Shown piece by piece: positions 13,206 through 63,496 of a DNA stretch of 64,000 bases. The position numbers and the translations under genes were made by a program. Origin of the DNA: Salibaculum halophilum (GTDB lineage: Bacteria; Pseudomonadota; Alphaproteobacteria; Rhodobacterales; Rhodobacteraceae); the NCBI RefSeq assembly GCF_002094885.1, contig NZ_MSIT01000002.1, forward strand, positions 1 through 64,000. Reading direction: 5' to 3'. The notes below the pieces were generated by a model. It worked only from the letters and a program-made list of their open reading frames with translations, had not been told where the DNA came from and did not search any database. Position 1 is the stretch's first letter; every line of letters begins with the position of its first letter.

Positions 13206-13526
13206 ATGGCTACCGTTGCTGTCACCGACGATACGTTCGATGCCGAAGTCCGTCAGTCCGATGTCCCCGTCGTGGTGGACTTCTGGGCCGAATGGTGCGG
13301 CCCCTGCAAACAGATCGGCCCCGCGCTGGAGGAATTGTCCGAGGAGATGGCCGGCAAGATCAAGGTCGCCAAGGTCGACGTGGACCAGAACCCGATGTCG
13401 CCCGGCCAAATGGGCGTGCGCGGTATTCCCGCCCTGTTCATCTTCAAGGATGGCCAGGTGGTTTCAAATAAGGCCGGCGCGGCGCCCAAGGCCGCCCTGC
13501 AGAGCTGGATCGAGGAAAGCATCTGA
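13206..13526 (+). CDS. trxA: Thioredoxin
   Basis: This is a canonical 106-residue thioredoxin with the active site WCGPC at residues 30-34 and the cis-Pro in RGIPALFIF. It reduces disulfides of cytosolic enzymes such as ribonucleotide reductase using electrons from thioredoxin reductase. The ribosome binding site AGGAGA lies a few bases before the ATG. The gap after addA contains A/T-rich sequence that could hold its own promoter. A strong hairpin terminator lies just downstream. Confidence 0.97.
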
Positions 13527-22610: not shown

Positions 22611-23440
22611 CCCAGAACCGCGGCGCGCGTCTCATCATCGACGACCGGCCGGACGCCGAACCAACGCTCGAACCCAGGAACAGCCTGGTGCAGCAACATG
22701 CCGAGGCCATCGACGGTCGTGCAGCCCATCGCTTCCGCCTCTCGCAGAAGGCGGGTTTGCAGGGGGGAATAAACAAGGTCAGTCACAACGGCATCACGCC
22801 GCAATCCGTCGAGCGGTACGCGCAGGTCCGGTTGTCCAGTCATGCCGAGCGAGCTCGTGTTCACGACGGTGGTGGCGTCCTCAAGCATGTTTCCGGCCTG
22901 GACCCACTCCACAACGGTGATCCGGGAGCCGAATTCGGAACGCAAGGCATCAGCGCGCGCGCGCGTCCGGTTGCTGAGCAGGATTTCCGTAACGCCAGCC
23001 TCGATGAGCGATGTAAGAACAGCACGCGCTGCACCGCCCGCGCCGAGGACAGCAGCCGGGCCGATGGCCGGCTTCCAGCCGGGCGCTTTTTGTCGAAGGT
23101 TTGCCACGAACCCGTAGCCATCCGTATTGTCCGCGTGAATTTTTCCATCGCGACGGAATATGATCGTGTTCGCAGCTCCGATTAGCGCGGCACGGTCCGT
23201 GACCAGATCGGCAATGTCGAGCACGGCTTCCTTGTGCGGGATCGTGACGTTGACGCCGGCAAATCCCATGGATGGTAACGTGCGGATTACCTGGCAGAGG
23301 TCCGCCTCGGCAACATGGAGGGGAACATAATGGCCCGCACGTTCATACCTCGTGAGCCAGTGGTGGAACAGGCGCGGAGATCTGGAATGTGCGACGGGGT
23401 TGCCCAGCACCCCGGCCAAGGGAATATGGGTGTCGGTCAT
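22607..23440 (-). CDS. aroE: Shikimate dehydrogenase (NADP+)
   Basis: This 277-residue enzyme reduces 3-dehydroshikimate in aromatic amino acid synthesis. The shikimate-binding SRSPRLFHHWL is near residue 20, the catalytic Lys is in NVTIPHKEAVLD (about 66-70), and the Asp is in NTDGYGFVANL. The nucleotide-binding GAGGAARAVL and the NRTRARAD loop point to NADP. It overlaps maf and coaE by four bases each. Confidence 0.95.
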   Translation of the reverse strand: MTDTHIPLAGVLGNPVAHSRSPRLFHHWLTRYERAGHYVPLHVAEADLCQVIRTLPSMGFAGVNVTIPHKEAVLDIADLVTDRAALIGAANTIIFRRDGKIHADNTDGYGFVANLRQKAPGWKPAIGPAAVLGAGGAARAVLTSLIEAGVTEILLSNRTRARADALRSEFGSRITVVEWVQAGNMLEDATTVVNTSSLGMTGQPDLRVPLDGLRRDAVVTDLVYSPLQTRLLREAEAMGCTTVDGLGMLLHQAVPGFERWFGVRPVVDDETRAAVLG

Positions 23441-24036
23441 GACTGCACTGTTCCGCGAAGTGCCAGATAAGACAAGAGTTCAAGAAGCGGCAAACCCTGC
23501 ACGGTGAAGTGGTCGCCCGTGATGTTGCTGAACAGCCTGATTCCTTCCTCTTCGATCTTGTAACAGCCGACAGACCAGCGGATGCTTTCCCAGTTTCGGG
23601 CGACATAATCATCTCGGTAAGCATCGGAAAAGGCGCGCATGGTCAGACGCGCTACGCCAACATGGCGCCAGACCGGCTCGGAGTCTTCGTACAAAACCGC
23701 GGCGGAGAGTAGTTGATGTGTTGCGCGCCGCAGCCGGGCGAGTTGGTCACACGCCTCCTCGGGGCTTTGCGGTTTCGACAACACGGACCCGCCGTGGGCG
23801 AGGACCTGATCGCACCCGAGAACCAAAGCGTCGGGGACTTTTTGCGATACCTTGCGGGCTTTCATCTCAGCCAAAGCATCGGCGATGTCCCGCGGCATGG
23901 CGTCCGCCTGCACCATGGATGCCTTGAGCGCGTCTTCGTCGACGCGCGCCGGAATCGGTTGGTGGTCTACCCCGGCCGCATGCAGCATCTGTGACCGGAT
24001 TTCGGATGCAGAGGCGAGGACAAGCGTGTCTTTCAT
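23437..24036 (-). CDS. maf: Maf family nucleoside triphosphate pyrophosphatase
   Basis: This 199-residue house-cleaning pyrophosphatase hydrolyses non-canonical or pyrimidine nucleoside triphosphates and is linked to septum control in some bacteria. It shows LASASEIRSQMLHAAG near the start, the acidic VLGCDQVLAHGGSVLSKP motif, and ALRGTVQS at the end. It is first in the maf-aroE-coaE-dnaQ operon and divergent from rho across a 514-bp gap. Which Maf subfamily it belongs to (dTTP- or m7GTP-type) was not decided. Confidence 0.92.
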   Translation of the reverse strand: MKDTLVLASASEIRSQMLHAAGVDHQPIPARVDEDALKASMVQADAMPRDIADALAEMKARKVSQKVPDALVLGCDQVLAHGGSVLSKPQSPEEACDQLARLRRATHQLLSAAVLYEDSEPVWRHVGVARLTMRAFSDAYRDDYVARNWESIRWSVGCYKIEEEGIRLFSNITGDHFTVQGLPLLELLSYLALRGTVQS

Positions 24037-24550
24037 GTGGATATCCCAGTGTGCTTATCGGTGCGGAAGCGGCGGAGCGATCCCGTTGAAACTTCCGGCC
24101 AGCGGGGGCTGGTGGAAAGTCCGGGTCTTGTCCGTGACTTCAGAGCATTTGTCCACGGGGGACAGGGAGGAATCCAGGCTGTGTATAACTTAGGCCAGAC
24201 ATGGCCAATCTCGGAAAGGCAAGAGGGATACTCTCAGGTATTAGAAAAAATAATTTCTTAAAAACAATGCCTTAAAATATTTTCTGTTTCCTCTGTCACA
24301 TTATCAAGTCGCTGGTCAGGTGGGGATGAAAGCGAGGAAAACAACCCGACACGGAGTTTTCCACTCCCCTACAACAATTACAGCACCTTTATATTTTTTC
24401 TGTGATGAAGGGGGCTCAACACGCCAAGCTGCCAATACGGACGGTGCTTGACTTGCTGTCAGGATGCACATAGTCGGATAAAGTTCCGTCCGGAATATCG
24501 ACATCCCATGACATTGAAGCATTGCTGTTTGTTTCAACAGGAGACGACCC
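24037..24550. other. maf-rho intergenic region, candidate chromosomal replication origin
   Basis: No plausible gene lies in these 514 bp. The stretch 24241-24300 has 46 A/T of 60 bases in an otherwise GC-rich chromosome, and a second A/T run lies at 24385-24400. TGTGTATAA at 24180-24188 is a perfect relaxed DnaA box (TTATNCACA, reverse strand). TTGTCCACG (24149-24157) and TTTTCCACT (24357-24365) match at 7 of 9 positions. The neighbours (maf-aroE-coaE-dnaQ, secB, timA, rho, mnmE, mnmG, parAB) are those that surround oriC in many alphaproteobacteria. The promoters of maf and rho must also be here. Confidence 0.5.
24448..24476 (+). promoter_or_regulatory. Possible rho promoter
   Basis: TTGACT (24448-24453) is a good -35 element. 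Seventeen bases later, TAGTCG is only a weak -10. The position, about 75 bp before the rho start, is right for a leader, but the -10 is poor, so confidence is low. Confidence 0.28.
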
Positions 24551-25825
24551 TTGTCCGACCAACGCCTGAACCTGTCTGACTTGAAGGCGCAAAGCCCCAA
24601 GGACCTTCTTTCCATGGCCGAGGAGCTTGAAATCGAGAACGCTTCGACCATGCGCAAGGGCGAGATGATGTTCTCGATCCTGCGGGAACGGGCGGACGAT
24701 GACTGGATCATCGGTGGCGATGGTGTCCTGGAAGTCTTGCAGGACGGGTTCGGTTTTCTGCGCTCGCCCGAGGCGAATTACCTGCCCGGCCCCGACGACA
24801 TCTACGTGAGCCCCGAGATGATCAAGAAATTCTCCTTGCGGACGGGCGATACAGTTGCCGGCGTGATCAAGGAGCCAAACGATACCGAACGCTATTTCGG
24901 CTTGATCACGGTTGAGTCGATCAACTTTTCGGATCCGGACAAGGCCCGGCACAAGGTTGCGTTCGACAACCTGACTCCGCTCTACCCCGACGAGCGCCTC
25001 AACATGGAGATCGAAGACGACCCGACAGTCAAGGACCGGTCGGCACGGATCATCGACCTCGTGGCGCCGATCGGGAAAGGGCAGCGATCTTTGATCGTCG
25101 CACCGCCGCGCACCGGCAAGACCGTTCTGTTGCAGAATATAGCGCATTCGATCGAACATAATCACCCCGAATGCTACCTCATCGTTCTGCTGATCGACGA
25201 GCGTCCGGAAGAGGTGACGGACATGCAGCGATCGGTGAAGGGCGAGGTGATTTCCTCGACCTTCGATGAACCCGCGACCCGGCATGTCGGGGTTTCCGAG
25301 ATGGTGATCGAAAAAGCCAAGCGGCTCGTCGAACACAAGCGGGACGTTGTGATCTTGCTGGACTCGATCACTCGCCTTGGCCGCGCCTACAACACGACCG
25401 TGCCAAGCTCGGGCAAGGTGCTCACCGGTGGTGTCGATGCGAACGCCCTGCAGCGGCCCAAGCGGTTCTTCGGTGCCGCGCGGAACATCGAGGAAGGGGG
25501 GTCCCTGACGATCATCTCGACGGCGCTGATCGACACGGGCAGCCGCATGGACGAGGTTATTTTTGAGGAGTTCAAGGGCACCGGGAACAGTGAGATCGTT
25601 CTTGACCGGAAGGTTGCTGACAAACGAGTCTTCCCGGCGATGGATATCCTGAAGTCGGGGACGCGGAAAGAGGACCTCCTGATCGAGAAAGCGGACCTTC
25701 AGAAGACCTTCGTGCTCCGGCGTATCCTGAATCCCATGGGCACGACGGATGCGATCGAGTTCCTTATCTCGAAACTCAAGCAGACGAAGACAAATGCGGA
25801 TTTCTTCGAATCGATGAATACCTGA
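24551..25825 (+). CDS. rho: Transcription termination factor Rho
   Basis: This 424-residue hexameric RNA helicase releases transcripts. The start is a TTG at 24551 with AGGAGA ten bases upstream; the product begins (M)[19 protein letters not shown] as in other alphaproteobacteria, and no nearby ATG fits. The N-terminal RNA-binding domain carries [19 protein letters not shown]. The ATPase has Walker [16 protein letters not shown], Walker [17 protein letters not shown], and the Q and R loops [23 protein letters not shown]. mnmE follows after 19 bp. A rare start codon and a long leader suit the autoregulation of Rho known in other bacteria. Confidence 0.96.
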
Positions 25826-25844: not shown

Positions 25845-27131
25845 ATGGACACCATATTTGCCCAGGCGACGGCTGCGGGCAAAGCCGGGATCTCCGTCAT
25901 CCGGGTTTCGGGACCTGATGCACTCTCGAGTGGCCTTGCTTTTGGTGTTCGGCTGGATCCTATTGACAGGAAGGTTTCGCGGCTTTTGGACGGGGATGGC
26001 GCGCTGATCGACATCGCGTTCCTCCTGTCGTTCAAAGCAGGGCACAGCTTTACCGGTGAGCCGGTCGTCGAGTTTCATACGCATGGATCGCAGGTGATTG
26101 TGTCCCGGGTCCTGAACCGGCTGTCGGAGGCGGGGTTTCGTCCGGCGGAACCTGGCGAATTCACGCGGCGCGCCCTGGAGACAGGTCAGCTGGATCTGAG
26201 CCAGGTCGAAGGCCTGGCCGATTTGATCGACGCCGAGACCGAAGAGCAGAGGCGTCAGGCTGTCAGGGTGTTCGACGGGGCGCTCGGCGGCCTCGTTGAA
26301 GAGTGGCGGTCGAAGCTGGTCCGTGCGGCGGCATTGCTGGAAGCCACGATCGATTTCGCCGACGAAGATGTGCCCGAGAACGTTTTTCCGGAAGTGCAGA
26401 ATCTGTTGGTGTCGGTACATGGCGAACTAGAAAGTGAGGCCGAAGGGGCCGACGTTCGGGAGCGGGTGCGTGATGGGTTCGAAGTTGCGATCGTCGGGGC
26501 GCCCAACACCGGGAAGTCCACGCTCTTGAATCGCCTGGCGGGGCGAGACGCGGCGATCACCTCGGAGCACGCGGGAACGACGCGGGATGTGATTGAGGTC
26601 CGCATGGATCTCAAGGGCTTGCCCGTGACGATTCTTGACACAGCGGGTCTGCGTGATGCCAAGGACGATGTTGAGCGGATCGGGATAGATATGGGCAGGA
26701 AGCGAGCTTCCGCGGCGGATTTGCGCATCTACCTGCTGGAATCTATTGACGAGCCGGTCAGTCCGCTTTCACCGGACGATATCATTGTCCTCTCGAAGGC
26801 GGATCGCCATGTTGATCTGTCAATGCCGGCTGTTTCCGGGCATACGGGCCTTGGGATGGATGATTTGGTCGGCCGTGTTGCGACAATGCTGTCGGATCGT
26901 GTGCGTTCAACAGGAACAGCGACGCGGGCGCGACATGCGGCCGCTCTTCGCGACGGCGTCTCGTGGATAGGCGGGGTGTTGGAGCGTTTGTCGGCAAATG
27001 ATATCGACAACGTGGATATCTTGGCAGAGGATGTCAGGGCTGCGATACGGGCGCTGGATATGCTTGTCGGTCGTGTGGATGTGGAAACGCTGCTCGATGA
27101 GATATTCACGAGCTTTTGCATAGGAAAGTAA
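25845..27131 (+). CDS. mnmE: tRNA modification GTPase MnmE (TrmE)
   Basis: This 428-residue GTPase works with MnmG to install cmnm5 on U34 of tRNAs. The N-terminal folate-binding domain (MDTIFAQATAAGKAGISVIRVSG) is followed by a helical part. An inserted G domain shows GAPNTGKSTLLNRLAG (G1), HAGTTRD (G2), DTAGLR (G3) and LSKADR (G4). The end, CIGK, holds the essential Cys of the C-terminal CxGK motif. AGGAGA precedes the ATG. mnmG starts 12 bp later, so the two partner subunits are made from one transcript. Confidence 0.96.
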   Translation: MDTIFAQATAAGKAGISVIRVSGPDALSSGLAFGVRLDPIDRKVSRLLDGDGALIDIAFLLSFKAGHSFTGEPVVEFHTHGSQVIVSRVLNRLSEAGFRPAEPGEFTRRALETGQLDLSQVEGLADLIDAETEEQRRQAVRVFDGALGGLVEEWRSKLVRAAALLEATIDFADEDVPENVFPEVQNLLVSVHGELESEAEGADVRERVRDGFEVAIVGAPNTGKSTLLNRLAGRDAAITSEHAGTTRDVIEVRMDLKGLPVTILDTAGLRDAKDDVERIGIDMGRKRASAADLRIYLLESIDEPVSPLSPDDIIVLSKADRHVDLSMPAVSGHTGLGMDDLVGRVATMLSDRVRSTGTATRARHAAALRDGVSWIGGVLERLSANDIDNVDILAEDVRAAIRALDMLVGRVDVETLLDEIFTSFCIGK

Positions 27132-27135
27132 GGAG

Positions 27136-27151
27136 TGTTTCACGTGAAACA
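27136..27151. promoter_or_regulatory. parS centromere site 1 (ParB binding)
   Basis: TGTTTCACGTGAAACA is a perfect 16-bp palindrome identical to the widely conserved bacterial parS. It sits across the mnmG start and is about 3.3 kb from parB, in the right place for an origin-proximal nucleation site of ParB. Confidence 0.95.
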
Positions 27152-29018
27152 TTCGCATTACGATGTCGTGGTGATCGGAGGCGGGCACGCGGGTGTCGAG
27201 GCTGCGCACGCGGCCGCAAGAATGGGTGTGCGCACGGCGCTTGTGACCCTTACGCGCGATAGTATCGGCGTGATGTCTTGCAATCCGGCAATTGGCGGCC
27301 TCGGGAAGGGCCATCTGGTTCGCGAGATTGACGCCATGGATGGCGTAATGGGTCGTGTTGCGGATCGGTCGGGTATCCAGTTTCGTCTGTTGAACAGGCG
27401 GAAAGGGCCGGCGGTACAGGGGCCACGCACCCAAGCGGATCGGAAGCTCTACAAAGCCGCGATGCTTGCGGAGACGGAAGAGCGCGAAGGGCTAGATATT
27501 GTCGAGGGTGAGGTGGTCGATCTGCGGATCAACAAGGACCGAATTGATGGCGTCGTGCTTAGTGATGGGGCTGAGATTACGGCGCCGAATGTGATCCTGA
27601 CCACGGGAACATTTCTACGTGGCCTGATTCACATCGGAGACGAGCGGATCCCGGCGGGCCGAATGGGTGACCGTCCTTCGGTTCGGCTCGCGGAACGTCT
27701 TGACGATCTCGGTTTGGCGCTTGGGCGTCTCAAGACCGGGACACCACCGCGATTGGATGGGAAAACCATCGATTGGGGAAAGCTGGACCGGCAGGCGGCC
27801 GATCCCGACCCGACGCTGTTCAGCTTTCTTCATGATAAGCCATTTGCCAGGCAAATTTCATGTGGGATCACTCATACCAATTGCCGAACCCACGAGATTA
27901 TCCGTGCCAACCTGGCGAAATCCGCGATGCATAGGGGCCAAATCGAGGGCGTTGGCCCCCGCTACTGCCCGTCCATCGAAGACAAGATTACCCGGTTCGC
28001 GGACAAGGACTCGCACCAGGTCTTTATTGAGCCGGAAGGACTGGACAGTGACATCGTTTATCCAAACGGGATTTCGACCTCTCTGCCAGCCATCGTTCAA
28101 GAGACGTATGTCCGGTCAATGGCGGGTCTTGAAAACGCGACCATTCTGCAAGCGGGCTATGCGATCGAATACGATTACGTGGATCCACGTTGTCTGACGC
28201 GGGAGTTGCAATTGAAAGATCTGGCCGGCCTCTTCCTCGCCGGGCAGATAAATGGGACGACCGGCTATGAAGAGGCAGCCGCACAAGGACTGGTCGCCGG
28301 GCTCGCGGCGGCGCATCGGGCCCTGGAGAGGGAGCGGATCAACTTTGATCGAACGACGTCCTATATCGGTGTGATGGTCGACGACCTGGTGACGCGTGGC
28401 GTGACAGAGCCCTATCGGATGTTCACGTCGCGGGCGGAGTTCCGGCTGGCCTTGCGGTCGGACAACGCCGATCAGCGGCTTACGCCGTTTGGCCGGGAAC
28501 GGGGATGCGTCGGGGATGCACGTTGGCGATCGTATGCGAAGAAGGCTGCAGAGCTTTCGCAATTAAAGACTTGCTTGGAGACGACCTCGGTGAGTTCCCG
28601 TGTATTGGCCGAGGCGGGGGTGAACGTGAACGTTGACGGCCCCAAGCGCACGCTTTTCGACGCCTTGTCGATCAGCGGGACGGAATTTTCACAGATTGCG
28701 TCGTTTCTGCCAGAGGTAAATCAGTATGTTGACGGCCGGATCGTTCGGCAGGCGGAAATAGATGCACTATACCATCATTACGTTGCGCGGCAACGGAAGG
28801 ACGTCGAGCTATTGCACAAAGATGAAGCGCTACGTCTACCCGGTGATATAGACTACGTCAGCCTTTCAGGGCTTTCGGGCGAGCTTGCCGCGAAGTTGGA
28901 AAAGGCGCGCCCGGAAACGATAGGCCAAGCCGGACGGATTGAGGGCATGACGCCTGCCGCACTCAGCCTTCTGGTGGCTGTGATACGGAAGAAAGAGGCC
29001 CGGGACAAGGCGAGCTGA
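27144..29018 (+). CDS. mnmG: tRNA uridine-34 carboxymethylaminomethyl modification enzyme MnmG (GidA)
   Basis: This FAD enzyme of about 624 residues is the partner of MnmE. The dinucleotide-binding start is [21 protein letters not shown]. Family signatures include [47 protein letters not shown] and [18 protein letters not shown] start at the GTG at 27144, which has AAGGAG eight bases upstream. The in-frame GTG at 27135 overlaps that ribosome binding site. The chosen start codon lies inside parS site 1. The gene overlaps the rsmG start by one base (TGATG). Confidence 0.95.
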
Positions 29019-29638
29019 TGGGCGGCGATGACGTTCCAGGTGTAAGTGTTTCACGTGAAACATCGTCCAAACTGAGTCATCTCGCCACGATGACAAGGAC
29101 GTGGACGAAGAAGATAAACCTCGTTGCGCCGTCTACTGTCGACGCCGTCTGGGATCGGCACATCGGCGATTCCGCACAGCTGCTTGCTCATGCGCCGGTA
29201 AACTGGCGCCATTGGGTGGATCTTGGCAGTGGCGGTGGGTTTCCCGGCCTCGTGATCGCCATTCTTGCTCACGCCGATCGTGATGTAACCCTGATCGAAA
29301 GCGACCTTCGAAAATGCACGTTCCTTCGAACAGTGATCCGAGAACTTGGGCTAGCTGCGAAGGTCGTCAACGACCGCATAGAAAACGCCAAGATTGCCCG
29401 GGCCGATATCGTCTCGGCGCGAGCCCTGGCGCCTCTCGGCCAGCTTCTGAACTATACTTCAGGCATTCTTGACGACAGTGGCACCGCCCTTTTCCCGAAA
29501 GGCCAGACACATACGTCCGAAATTCTCTCGGCGCGCGAGAGTTGGTCCTTTGAGTGCGATGCCATGCCCAGTATAACGAACCCCGACGCTCGAATTCTCC
29601 GAATCTCAAGGATCAGGAAACGTGGATCTCAGCCGTAG
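29018..29638 (+). CDS. rsmG: 16S rRNA (guanine-527-N7) methyltransferase RsmG (GidB)
   Basis: This 206-residue SAM-dependent enzyme methylates G527 of 16S rRNA; its loss gives low-level streptomycin resistance. It shows [25 protein letters not shown], the SAM motif [17 protein letters not shown], and [15 protein letters not shown]. The ATG at 29018 overlaps the mnmG stop. The start region encodes VSVSRETSS over parS site 2, so the protein tolerates the fixed DNA motif. The last 17 bases overlap the start of parA. Confidence 0.95.
29047..29062. promoter_or_regulatory. parS centromere site 2 (ParB binding)
   Basis: A second perfect TGTTTCACGTGAAACA lies within codons 10-15 of rsmG, 1,911 bp from the first. 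Both sites are inside translated sequence and close to parAB. No third copy was noticed by eye in the window. Confidence 0.95.
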
Positions 29639-30434
29639 GACCGACCCGAAGATCATCGCCATTGCCAACCAGAAGGGCGGCGTTGGAAAGACAACGACCG
29701 CAATCAACCTCGGCGCGGGCCTTGCCCGCTCCGGCCGCCGGGTTCTGCTCGTTGACCTCGATCCGCAGGGAAACGCGTCCACCGGCCTTGGCATGGATGA
29801 TCGGGCGACAACAACCTATGACCTGCTCCTCGGAGAAACCCCGCCGAAAGCGGCTGCGCGCCCCACGAGCGTGGAGAACCTTTTGCTGATCCCTGCAACG
29901 ACAGATCTTAGTTCCGCTGACATCAACCTGATTTCGAATGAAAAACGCAGCTTCGTTCTGCATGATTCGCTTCGCCAGCCGTCCATTGATGACCTGCACC
30001 TGGACTACATCCTGATCGACTGCCCGCCCTCGCTGAATATTCTGACAATAAACGCGATGGTTGCCGCGCACTCGGTTATCGTCCCGCTGCAAAGCGAGTT
30101 CTTCGCCCTGGAAGGCCTGTCTCAGCTCATGCTCACCGTTCGTGAGGTGCGCGAGGCCGCCAACCCGGGCCTCAGGATAGAAGGTGTGATCCTGACCATG
30201 TATGACCGCCGCAACAATCTCTGCCAGCAGGTCGAGAGTGACGCGCGTGACAATTTGCAAGACCTTGTGTTCCGCACCGTAATCCCGCGCAACGTCCGGC
30301 TCAGCGAGTCCCCGTCTTTTGCCCTGCCTGTCATGGACTATGATGCGGGATCGACCGGCAGCAAGGCCTATTTGGATCTTGCGGCCGAGATCATGGGGCG
30401 CGAGACGGCGATGCAGGAAAGGAAAGCAGTATGA
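29622..30434 (+). CDS. parA: Chromosome partitioning ATPase ParA (Soj)
   Basis: This 270-residue deviant Walker A ATPase drives origin segregation together with ParB and parS. The start is GTG at 29622 ([20 protein letters not shown]). The P-loop is [18 protein letters not shown]. Walker A' is [14 protein letters not shown], Walker B is [14 protein letters not shown], and the DNA-binding face is Arg-rich. It overlaps rsmG by 17 bases, and its stop overlaps the parB ATG by four, as expected for balanced expression. Confidence 0.96.
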
Positions 30435-31321
30435 GCGACAACACGACACGCACACGCGGCCTTGGTCGCGGATTATCGTCGCTCATGTCCGATGTGGTGA
30501 CGCAGGAACCTGCGCAGTCCGACAGGTCCGCGAAGACCGAAAGTCGCGCCGACCGGACAATACCAATCGAGAAACTTCACCCGAATCCCGACCAGCCACG
30601 ACGGAATTTCAACGACACCGCGCTGTCGGAACTTGCGGAGTCCATCAGGTCCAAGGGTGTCATCCAGCCCTTGATCGTACGCGAAACCGCGGACGACATG
30701 TTCGAAATCGTAGCTGGCGAGCGCCGTTGGCGCGCGGCGCAGAAGGCCGGACTGCACGACCTTCCCGTGCTTGTACGAGAGTTGTCGGACGCCGAAGTCC
30801 TGCAGTTCGCAATCATAGAGAACATTCAGCGTGCCGACCTCAACGCCGTGGATGAGGCGACCGGGTATCGCCAACTCATGGACCGGTTCGATCACACACA
30901 GGAGGACATCGCCTCGGCGCTCGGCAAGAGTCGCAGCCATATCGCGAACCTGCTGCGCCTTCTGACCCTTCCTGAAGATGTCCAGGTCCTTGTTTCGGAA
31001 GGCAAGCTTACCTCGGGGCACGCCCGTACCCTAGTTGGCAAAGAAAATGCGCACGAACTGGCCAAGCAGATCATCAAGGGCGACCTGTCTGTTCGACAGG
31101 CTGAAAAACTGGTCAACAAGTCCAAAGAGGCGAAGACCAAAGCCTCAAAGCCATCCGAAAAAGATGCGGACACGAAGAATATCGAGCGAGAGCTCGCCGC
31201 GCACCTGGGGATGTCCGTCAGGATCGACCACGATAGCGGTGGCGAAACCGGCAAGGTCACCCTCAGCTATCGTGATCTCGGCCAACTGGACGATCTTCTG
31301 CGACGCTTGTCCGGAGATTAA
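30431..31321 (+). CDS. parB: Chromosome partitioning protein ParB (CTP-dependent clamp)
   Basis: This 296-residue protein binds the two parS sites and slides as a CTP-loaded clamp. It begins with a flexible tail ([14 protein letters not shown]). The CTPase domain contains [30 protein letters not shown] (GERRxRA nucleotide motif) and [14 protein letters not shown]. Next come the helix-turn-helix [20 protein letters not shown] and a C-terminal dimerisation domain ([17 protein letters not shown]). The stop codon overlaps the end of convergent hemW by four bases. Confidence 0.96.
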
Positions 31322-61727: not shown

Positions 61728-62693
61728 ATGACCTATCCCTTGAAAGACAGACGCATCTGGGTGGCAGGCCATCGTGGGATGGTCGGCAGCGCGGTTGTGC
61801 GGCGTCTGGAGTCCGAGGGATGCGAGGTCATCCGCGCGGGTCGCGAGACTGTGGACCTGCAAGACCAGCACGCCGTCCGCAACTGGATGTCACAGGAAAA
61901 GCCCGACGCGATTGTGCTGGCGGCCGCCAAGGTGGGCGGCATTCTGGCCAATGACACGTATCCGGTTGATTTCCTGTACGAGAACCTGATGATCGAGGCC
62001 AATATCATCAATGCCGCGCATCTGAATGATGTCGAGCGCCTTCTGTTTCTGGGGTCATCCTGCATCTACCCCAAGCGCGCGCCCCAGCCTATTTCCGAAG
62101 ACAGCCTGCTCACGGGTCCGCTGGAGCCCACCAACGAATGGTATGCGATTGCCAAGATCGCCGGCATCAAGCTGGTGCAGGCCTATCGCAAGCAATACGG
62201 TCGGGACTGGATCTCGGCCATGCCGACCAATCTGTACGGCCCGGGTGACAATTTCGACCTTCAGTCCAGCCATGTCCTGCCCGCGCTGATCCGCAAGGCG
62301 CATGAAGCCAAACTGGCGGGATCGGATCATATCACCATTTGGGGCACCGGCACGCCGCGCCGGGAATTCCTGCATGCAGATGACTGCGCCGATGCGCTGG
62401 TCTTTCTGCTGCAGACCTATTCGGGTGATGTGCATGTCAATGTCGGATCGGGCGAGGATATCCCCATACATGACCTGGCGCAGCTGGTTTGCGAGGTCGT
62501 GGACTTCAACGGCGAGATCCGCTGCGACACCACCAAACCCGACGGCACGCCGCGCAAGCTGATGTCCGGCGACAAGCTGCGCGAGATGGGGTGGGCGCCT
62601 AAGATTGGTTTGCGAGAGGGCATTGCGGCCGTCTACCGCACGCATTTTGCCGAGGATGACCCCATTCGTGGCGCTTCGGTTGTCAACATTTAG
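61728..62693 (+). CDS. fcl: GDP-L-fucose synthase
   Basis: This 321-residue epimerase/reductase makes GDP-L-fucose from the Gmd product with NADPH. The nucleotide motif is [20 protein letters not shown], followed by [32 protein letters not shown] and catalytic Y-x3-K in [34 protein letters not shown] is typical of Fcl. It directly follows gmd, giving the complete fucose branch with manC. The base composition returns to the GC-rich level of the chromosome. Confidence 0.96.
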
Positions 62694-62707
62694 CTGAAGG
62701 CGACGCA

Positions 62708-63496
62708 ATGATTCCATTTAACAAGCAAATCATCTTCGCCACGCGCCCGCTGCGGTACGCGTTCGATAGCTTCACCTACGGCCGCTTCGCAGACTCAGTG
62801 CCCTTGGCCGCGCTGAAAGATAAACAAAAGGGCGAACCGATGCTTGTTGTGGGCAACGGTCCCAGCTTGAACCAGACCCCACTCGACGATTTCGCACATG
62901 TTCCATCCATTGGGATGAACAAGATCGACATGATCTATTCGCGCACAAAGTGGCGCCCCGAGGTGGTGGTTTGCCTCAACAACATGGTTGCAAAGCAGAG
63001 CCAAGACTCTTTCGCATGCAGTGAAATACCCGTTTTCGTGGCATGGAAAGCGCGTTGGTACTTGCGGGCGGAGAATCGCAAGAAGCTGAGATTCTTCAAC
63101 ACAAACCTGTCCAACGCGTTTTCAACAGATGCCGTTCGGGGCTTTGGCAGCTCGGCTACGGTGACTTATATTGCCTTGCAGTTGGCATACTGGATGGGGG
63201 CCGATCCGGTTATACTCTTCGGTGTGGACCACAGTTTCAAGTACAACGGTCCAGAGGCCACTTATCAAAAGCGCGAAGGGCCGGATACCAATCATTTCGA
63301 CCCAAATTATTTCAAGGCTGGAACTTATTGGGGAACCCCGGACCTGGACCAGTCAGAGATCGACTATGCCATTGCCCGGCAGGCTTTTGAAGCGGATGGT
63401 CGGAAGGTGTACGATGCGACAGTAGGCGGGAAGCTGGAAGTATTCGAGAAAATCGGGTTAGATCGGGCGTCGGCGCTGACCAAAAATGATCTTTGA
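62708..63496 (+). CDS. MptE/DUF115-like protein of polysaccharide loci
   Basis: This 262-residue protein has the nucleotide-binding motif LVVGNGPSLNQTPLDDF (about 46-62), followed by IGMNKIDMIY and, further on, FGSSATVTYIALQLAYWMGADPVILFGVDHSFKY. This is the pattern of DUF115/MptE-like proteins, found both as pterin pyrophosphokinases in archaea and, in bacterial glycan loci, as putative sugar transferases. It has no signal peptide. It lies 14 bp after fcl and 45 bp before the flippase gene. A role in adding or carrying a sugar is inferred. Confidence 0.7.
   Translation: MIPFNKQIIFATRPLRYAFDSFTYGRFADSVPLAALKDKQKGEPMLVVGNGPSLNQTPLDDFAHVPSIGMNKIDMIYSRTKWRPEVVVCLNNMVAKQSQDSFACSEIPVFVAWKARWYLRAENRKKLRFFNTNLSNAFSTDAVRGFGSSATVTYIALQLAYWMGADPVILFGVDHSFKYNGPEATYQKREGPDTNHFDPNYFKAGTYWGTPDLDQSEIDYAIARQAFEADGRKVYDATVGGKLEVFEKIGLDRASALTKNDL

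Follow-up and report, generated by a model that had tools for sequence, protein, structure and literature searches.

The 514-bp gap between maf and rho in Salibaculum halophilum is, with little doubt, best explained as a whole as the origin of replication (oriC) of the main chromosome, as judged from sequence. Location, flanking genes, DnaA boxes, parS sites and a comparison with relatives all support this placing, which is very probably correct, and they bear out the candidate chromosomal origin put forward here by an original prediction. That prediction concerned the 64,000-nucleotide stretch analysed below (the window), which forms the left end of a 293-kb contig. Fixing the origin of this draft chromosome gives a reference point for orienting its replichores, gene dosage and coverage-based estimates of growth rate. 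One detail is added here, an unwinding-type element, which we do not claim to be absent from print. It offers a concrete and testable feature in a large family of marine and photosynthetic bacteria, for which the placing of origins has been left mostly to software.

Location and neighbourhood of the predicted origin

As originally described, maf and rho diverge around the gap, the coordinates and Pfam matches being in agreement. Pfam likewise agrees with the names given to the neighbours, namely aroE, coaE, the DnaQ-type exonuclease gene (dnaQ), secB, mnmE, mnmG, rsmG, parA and parB (Table 1). The two parS sites noted previously near the gap are exact copies of TGTTTCACGTGAAACA, 2.6–4.5 kb away, and are the sole places with at most one mismatch to it in the 2,916,130-base, 66-contig assembly. 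The gap thus lies beside maf and near both parAB and parS, as an oriC of the Rhodobacteraceae should. Clustering of parS near rho is seen in seven of seven genomes, the six others each having two sites within about 5 kb of rho; two of these relatives (G018 and G035) were used just for the places of parS, dnaA and hemE. One additional one-mismatch place occurs in each of G003 and G013. That in G013 (C1:1399144) is about 2 kb away from dnaA and remote from the principal parS pair.

Table 1. Features of the predicted origin and its surroundings, in window positions
Feature	Position	Strand	Remarks
Predicted oriC, maf–rho intergenic gap	24037..24550		514 bp
maf, left flank	23437..24036	-	Pfam Maf
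rho, right flank	24551..25825	+	Pfam Rho domains
DnaA-box-like TTGTCCACG	24149..24157	+	2 mismatches; 9.0 bits with the relatives' matrix
DnaA-box-like TTATACACA, relaxed box	24180..24188	-	11.0 bits; relatives' boxes at equal distance from maf
A/T-rich block, candidate unwinding or protein-bending stretch	24245..24304		47/60 A/T; top 60-mer
Weak IHF-like site	24262..24274	+	1 mismatch to WATCAANNNNTTR
DnaA-box-like TCATCCCCA, facing the A/T block	24321..24329	-	10.4 bits
DnaA-box-like TTTTCCACT, first part of the unwinding-type element	24357..24365	+	8.5 bits
CCTAC and degenerate triplets, counterpart of the relatives' CCTACATCATCATCATCC	24368..24385	+	7.2 bits
T-rich tract ending the element	24388..24401	+	T-/pyrimidine-rich tract likewise in relatives
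parS-like site TGTTTCACGTGAAACA	27136..27151		0 mismatches
parS-like site TGTTTCACGTGAAACA	29047..29062		0 mismatches
parA	29622..30434	+	Pfam AAA_31, CbiA
parB	30431..31321	+	Pfam ParB_N, HTH_ParB, ParB_C

Relation to known origins

Published accounts, as far as the excerpts drawn on here go, place the oriC of Ketogulonicigenium vulgare Hbe602 beside maf, an arrangement conserved in the Rhodobacteraceae according to DoriC (PMC4793288). They further describe how oriC was predicted for 101 strains by means of Ori-Finder, skew and nearness to parAB (PMC6699656), and the use of skew together with ParB foci in Rhodobacter sphaeroides (PMC6315104). In the light of such maf-side origins (PMC4793288, PMC6699656) the present gap is a further predicted origin of the family, of a kind already known. 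With those origins, as the excerpts portray them, it shares an intergenic position beside maf, DnaA boxes and the closeness of parAB.

The gap differs from its counterparts in the gene content next to rho. Relatives were collected as 30 loci, this one included, cut around rho matches in the family, and as ten further loci found through a Maf search in Rhodobacter, Octadecabacter, Tabrizicola, Frigidibacter and other Rhodobacterales; one locus (L014), in whose stretch maf was not found, was left out, giving 39 gaps and 17,443 bases. These loci also serve to assign the window to the Rhodobacteraceae. In 31 of the 39 a UPF0093 gene, of the HemJ family, stands between origin and rho (30 by script, that of L024 by eye), and two of these genes checked against Pfam score 196–200 bits. 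The gap of S. halophilum has none. The sole UPF0093 match of its genome lies at C23:244242-244649 (87 bits), and three congeners also carry a copy elsewhere (71–85 bits); the lower scores of these copies (71–87 bits versus 196–200 in the two relatives) suggest loss or replacement of the original gene as a possibility. The maf–rho spacing in the three congeners is approximately 513, 516 and 542 bp, and a blastn search with the gap sequence returned no match beside their rho genes. Place and spacing are thus kept amongst congeners as the letters drift.

The Cori of Caulobacter crescentus is located beside hemE and COG1806 in the excerpt consulted (PMC1914354). On that description the two have in common that they are alphaproteobacterial DnaA-box origins with an A/T-rich stretch. 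They differ in that hemE of S. halophilum is on another contig (C5:51062), consistent with the earlier remark that it is missing from the vicinity of the gap, and in that the gap contains no exact CtrA or IHF site.

DnaA boxes

The relaxed DnaA box noted previously in the gap is an exact match to TTWTNCACA, one of two such in the window. Two 7/9 matches to TTATCCACA had also been reported, whereas four are present (24149+, 24321−, 24357+ and 24495+). The gap accordingly holds five boxes with up to two mismatches (four 7/9 and one 8/9) against the 0.76 expected from the density in the window. At a stricter cut of at most one mismatch it holds a single box against 0.16 in shuffles, a count equalled by 16 of 100 shuffles and not significant alone. 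Across the 39 gaps, this one included, there are 88 boxes with at most one mismatch, compared with a mean of 3.67 and a maximum of 8 in 100 shuffles (the L024 gap entered this count without being cut back at its UPF0093-type gene). None of the 39 lacks a box over 7 bits, and from gap to gap the boxes return at the same distances from maf. In opposed pairs the spacing is mostly 24–26 or 35–36 bp, a difference of about one helix turn; the boxes at 24321 and 24357 form a −/+ pair 36 bp apart, a spacing found in seven of the 39 gaps, that is, in this gap and in six relatives.

A DnaA-box matrix built from the relatives alone, with this gap left out, was run over 7,684 overlapping 500-bp segments, covering 385,653 bases of the assembly: all of the contig that carries the gap (C12, 292,956 bases), the contig with hemE (C5, 72,697 bases) and 20,000 bases of the contig with dnaA (C64). 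Segments on the gap rank first, with a summed score of 69 against 65 for the runner-up cluster at C12:68.65 kb. The best ranks around dnaA and hemE are 2,088 and 890, respectively. These poor ranks, together with the skew of relatives (below), go part of the way towards testing the contrary outcomes named with the original prediction, a skew minimum or marker-frequency peak elsewhere, for example near dnaA. Four boxes over 7 bits within 500 bp occur in 23 of the 7,684 segments, and of the 20 listed six are on the gap, the others lying at approximately 26.6–27.4 kb, 62.7–63.3 kb and C64:57 kb.

Within the window, two stretches reach this mark of four DnaA-box-like sites outside the gap: 26601–27450, which straddles the mnmE–mnmG junction and adjoins a parS site, and 62651–63300. 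The second-best cluster (C12:68451–69200), immediately to the right of the window, falls in A/T-rich frames for sugar transfer and sugar activation. Considered as an origin, the cluster at C12:68.45–69.2 kb is probably a product of chance, sitting as it does in sugar-gene reading frames.

A conserved unwinding-type element

In a forward-strand MAFFT alignment the relatives share a DnaA box followed by a C/G-rich spacer, then CCTACATCATCATCATCC and finally a T-rich tract. In 36 of the 38 relatives the refined motif lies at 310–353 bp from maf, the poor outliers being L012 and L027, and its forward strand outscores the reverse in 37 of 38; these scores are inflated, the motif having been refined on the relatives themselves with the present gap left out. 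A + strand box starts 11–12 bp upstream of the motif in 19 of the 39 gaps, 20–23 bp upstream in 12 and 8 bp upstream in one, and was not found in the remaining seven. In S. halophilum the box, CCTAC and the T-rich tract are in the right place, with 11 bp from box to CCTAC as in relatives, and the triplets are degenerate. The element's score is the 46th best of 127,966 window positions, so that chance would yield about 0.016 such hits, counting a single strand, over the 44 positions used by the relatives.

The basal unwinding system of Bacillus subtilis and others, in the part of its description used here, consists of DnaA boxes followed by DnaA-trios, triplets whose middle base is A on the strand read 3' to 5' (PMC8287927). 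Judged by that part, the element of the relatives resembles it in having one or more directional boxes, a short C/G-rich spacer, triplets with a central T on the box strand and a T-rich tract. It differs in that the triplets are ATC (3'-TAG-5' on the other strand) and not mainly 3'-GAT-5'; the corresponding run in Bacillus is CTA. The gap of S. halophilum departs further, its triplet run being degenerate. A search for the pattern (a DnaA box with at most two mismatches, a spacer of 0–16, and at least three triplets with a central T on the box strand) gave forward matches in 29 of the 39 gaps and reverse matches in 14, compared with 4.6 in shuffles, and at least four triplets at the conserved place in 10 of the 39 versus 0.14 in shuffles. 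At the conserved element of the present gap the + strand does not show the pattern, and one weak three-triplet match runs on the − strand from the 24321 box toward the A/T block.

From which sequences are present, how they are enriched and where they are conserved, we infer the following course of initiation. DnaA would bind the cluster of boxes at 24149, 24180, 24321 and 24357 along with weaker sites, the strands would melt either at the box–CCTAC–T-rich element (24357–24400) or in the A/T block (24245–24304), and the helicase would then be loaded and replication proceed in both directions. ParB bound to the two parS sites would separate the new origins. The conservation of the element in relatives, and its worn counterpart at 24357, 24368 and 24388, suggest that strand opening may take place there, at about 24357–24400, and not in the A/T block. 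A tentative extension, to which we give somewhat less than an even chance, is that Rhodobacteraceae origins open at a family-wide fixed element (tandem boxes–CCTAC–(ATC)n–T-rich) whose triplet run has decayed in this lineage, so that opening would now rely on the T-rich tract together with the first triplet, or would have shifted to the A/T block faced by the 24321 box. Were this so, the origin would illustrate how much drift from the trio rule is possible.

A rival reading takes the gap for no more than a double promoter and leader region serving maf and rho, which would account for its richness in A/T and would put the origin elsewhere, near dnaA or hemE. Divergent genes do need promoters, and the last 150 bp before rho, which has no boxes in common with relatives, is leader-like; one weak sigma-70-like promoter is present in the gap, no more than in shuffles. 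Against this reading stand the enrichment of DnaA boxes in the 39 gaps and a directional element held at a fixed distance from maf with or without a gene before rho. The clustering of parS, the poor box ranks at dnaA and hemE and an Rfam search of the region, which gave no family match, count against it further, and we regard it as very improbable.

The A/T-rich block and protein-binding sites

The 60-bp A/T block on which the prediction of an origin had drawn is real, albeit slightly understated: no 60-mer of the window is richer, and its A/T count is 47, not 46. It is the A/T maximum of all the S. halophilum sequence scanned, by one base over the 45–46 reached at C12:64.5–65.8 kb, and as such has the character of an A/T-rich unwinding region. 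The A/T peak falls 200–250 bp from maf in 24 of the 39 gaps, this one included, and more than 330 bp from it in 15.

The consensus for IHF is WATCAANNNNTTR, and the 39 gaps contain five exact sites against 0.9 in local shuffles and 44 sites with one mismatch against 19.4; the present gap has no exact site. CtrA recognises TTAA-N7-TTAA, of which there are four exact copies in the 39 gaps against 0.5 in shuffles and none in this gap, either exact or with one mismatch. GATC is as frequent across the 39 gaps as expected. GANTC is somewhat rarer (56 versus 71.2 in shuffles, sd 7.4).

GC skew

Skew within the window is weak. The cumulative minimum is at 13268, outside the gap, and the region from 26 to 28 kb is strongly G-rich and that from 30 to 34 kb C-rich, much as had been read by eye (mnmE–mnmG G-rich, parA C-rich, skew not decisive). 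Further along the 293-kb contig, 23 of 26 10-kb blocks to the right of the gap are G-rich; to the left the skew is not traceable, window position 1 being the first base of the contig.

Closed relatives were sampled in 40, 40, 20 and 20 stretches of at most 20 kb (G003, G013, G009 and G034, respectively), with a crude residual bootstrap. The fit for G013 falls 22 kb from rho (5–95% range 2–62 kb), with dnaA 215 kb and hemE 580 kb away. In 480 contiguous kb of the same genome 22 of 22 10-kb blocks to the left of rho are C-rich and 17 of 25 to the right G-rich, with the minimum 19 kb from rho. In G003 the lowest cumulative value among the samples belongs to the one with rho, and a two-turn fit lies 117–397 kb from rho; the fit for G009 is 172 kb from rho, with dnaA 312 kb and hemE 517 kb away; the 20 stretches of G034 are uninformative. 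The proposed check by the skew minimum thus comes out in favour of the gap in G013, whilst the other three genomes do not pinpoint it. A role of the gap as a site near the origin that titrates DnaA or regulates, with initiation some tens to hundreds of kb off, could be read from the turning points 60–400 kb from rho in G003 and G009 and from the window minimum 11 kb to the left of the gap, but G013 turns within 19 kb of rho, inversions around origins shift skew too, and the conserved element is laid out as an unwinding site would be and not as a mere box cluster. We consider this reading hardly credible.

Besides dnaA, contig C1 of G013 gives 14 further DnaA-family matches above the strong cut-off and one weak match. 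Several of these score identically, which suggests a multicopy IstB-like transposon ATPase gene.
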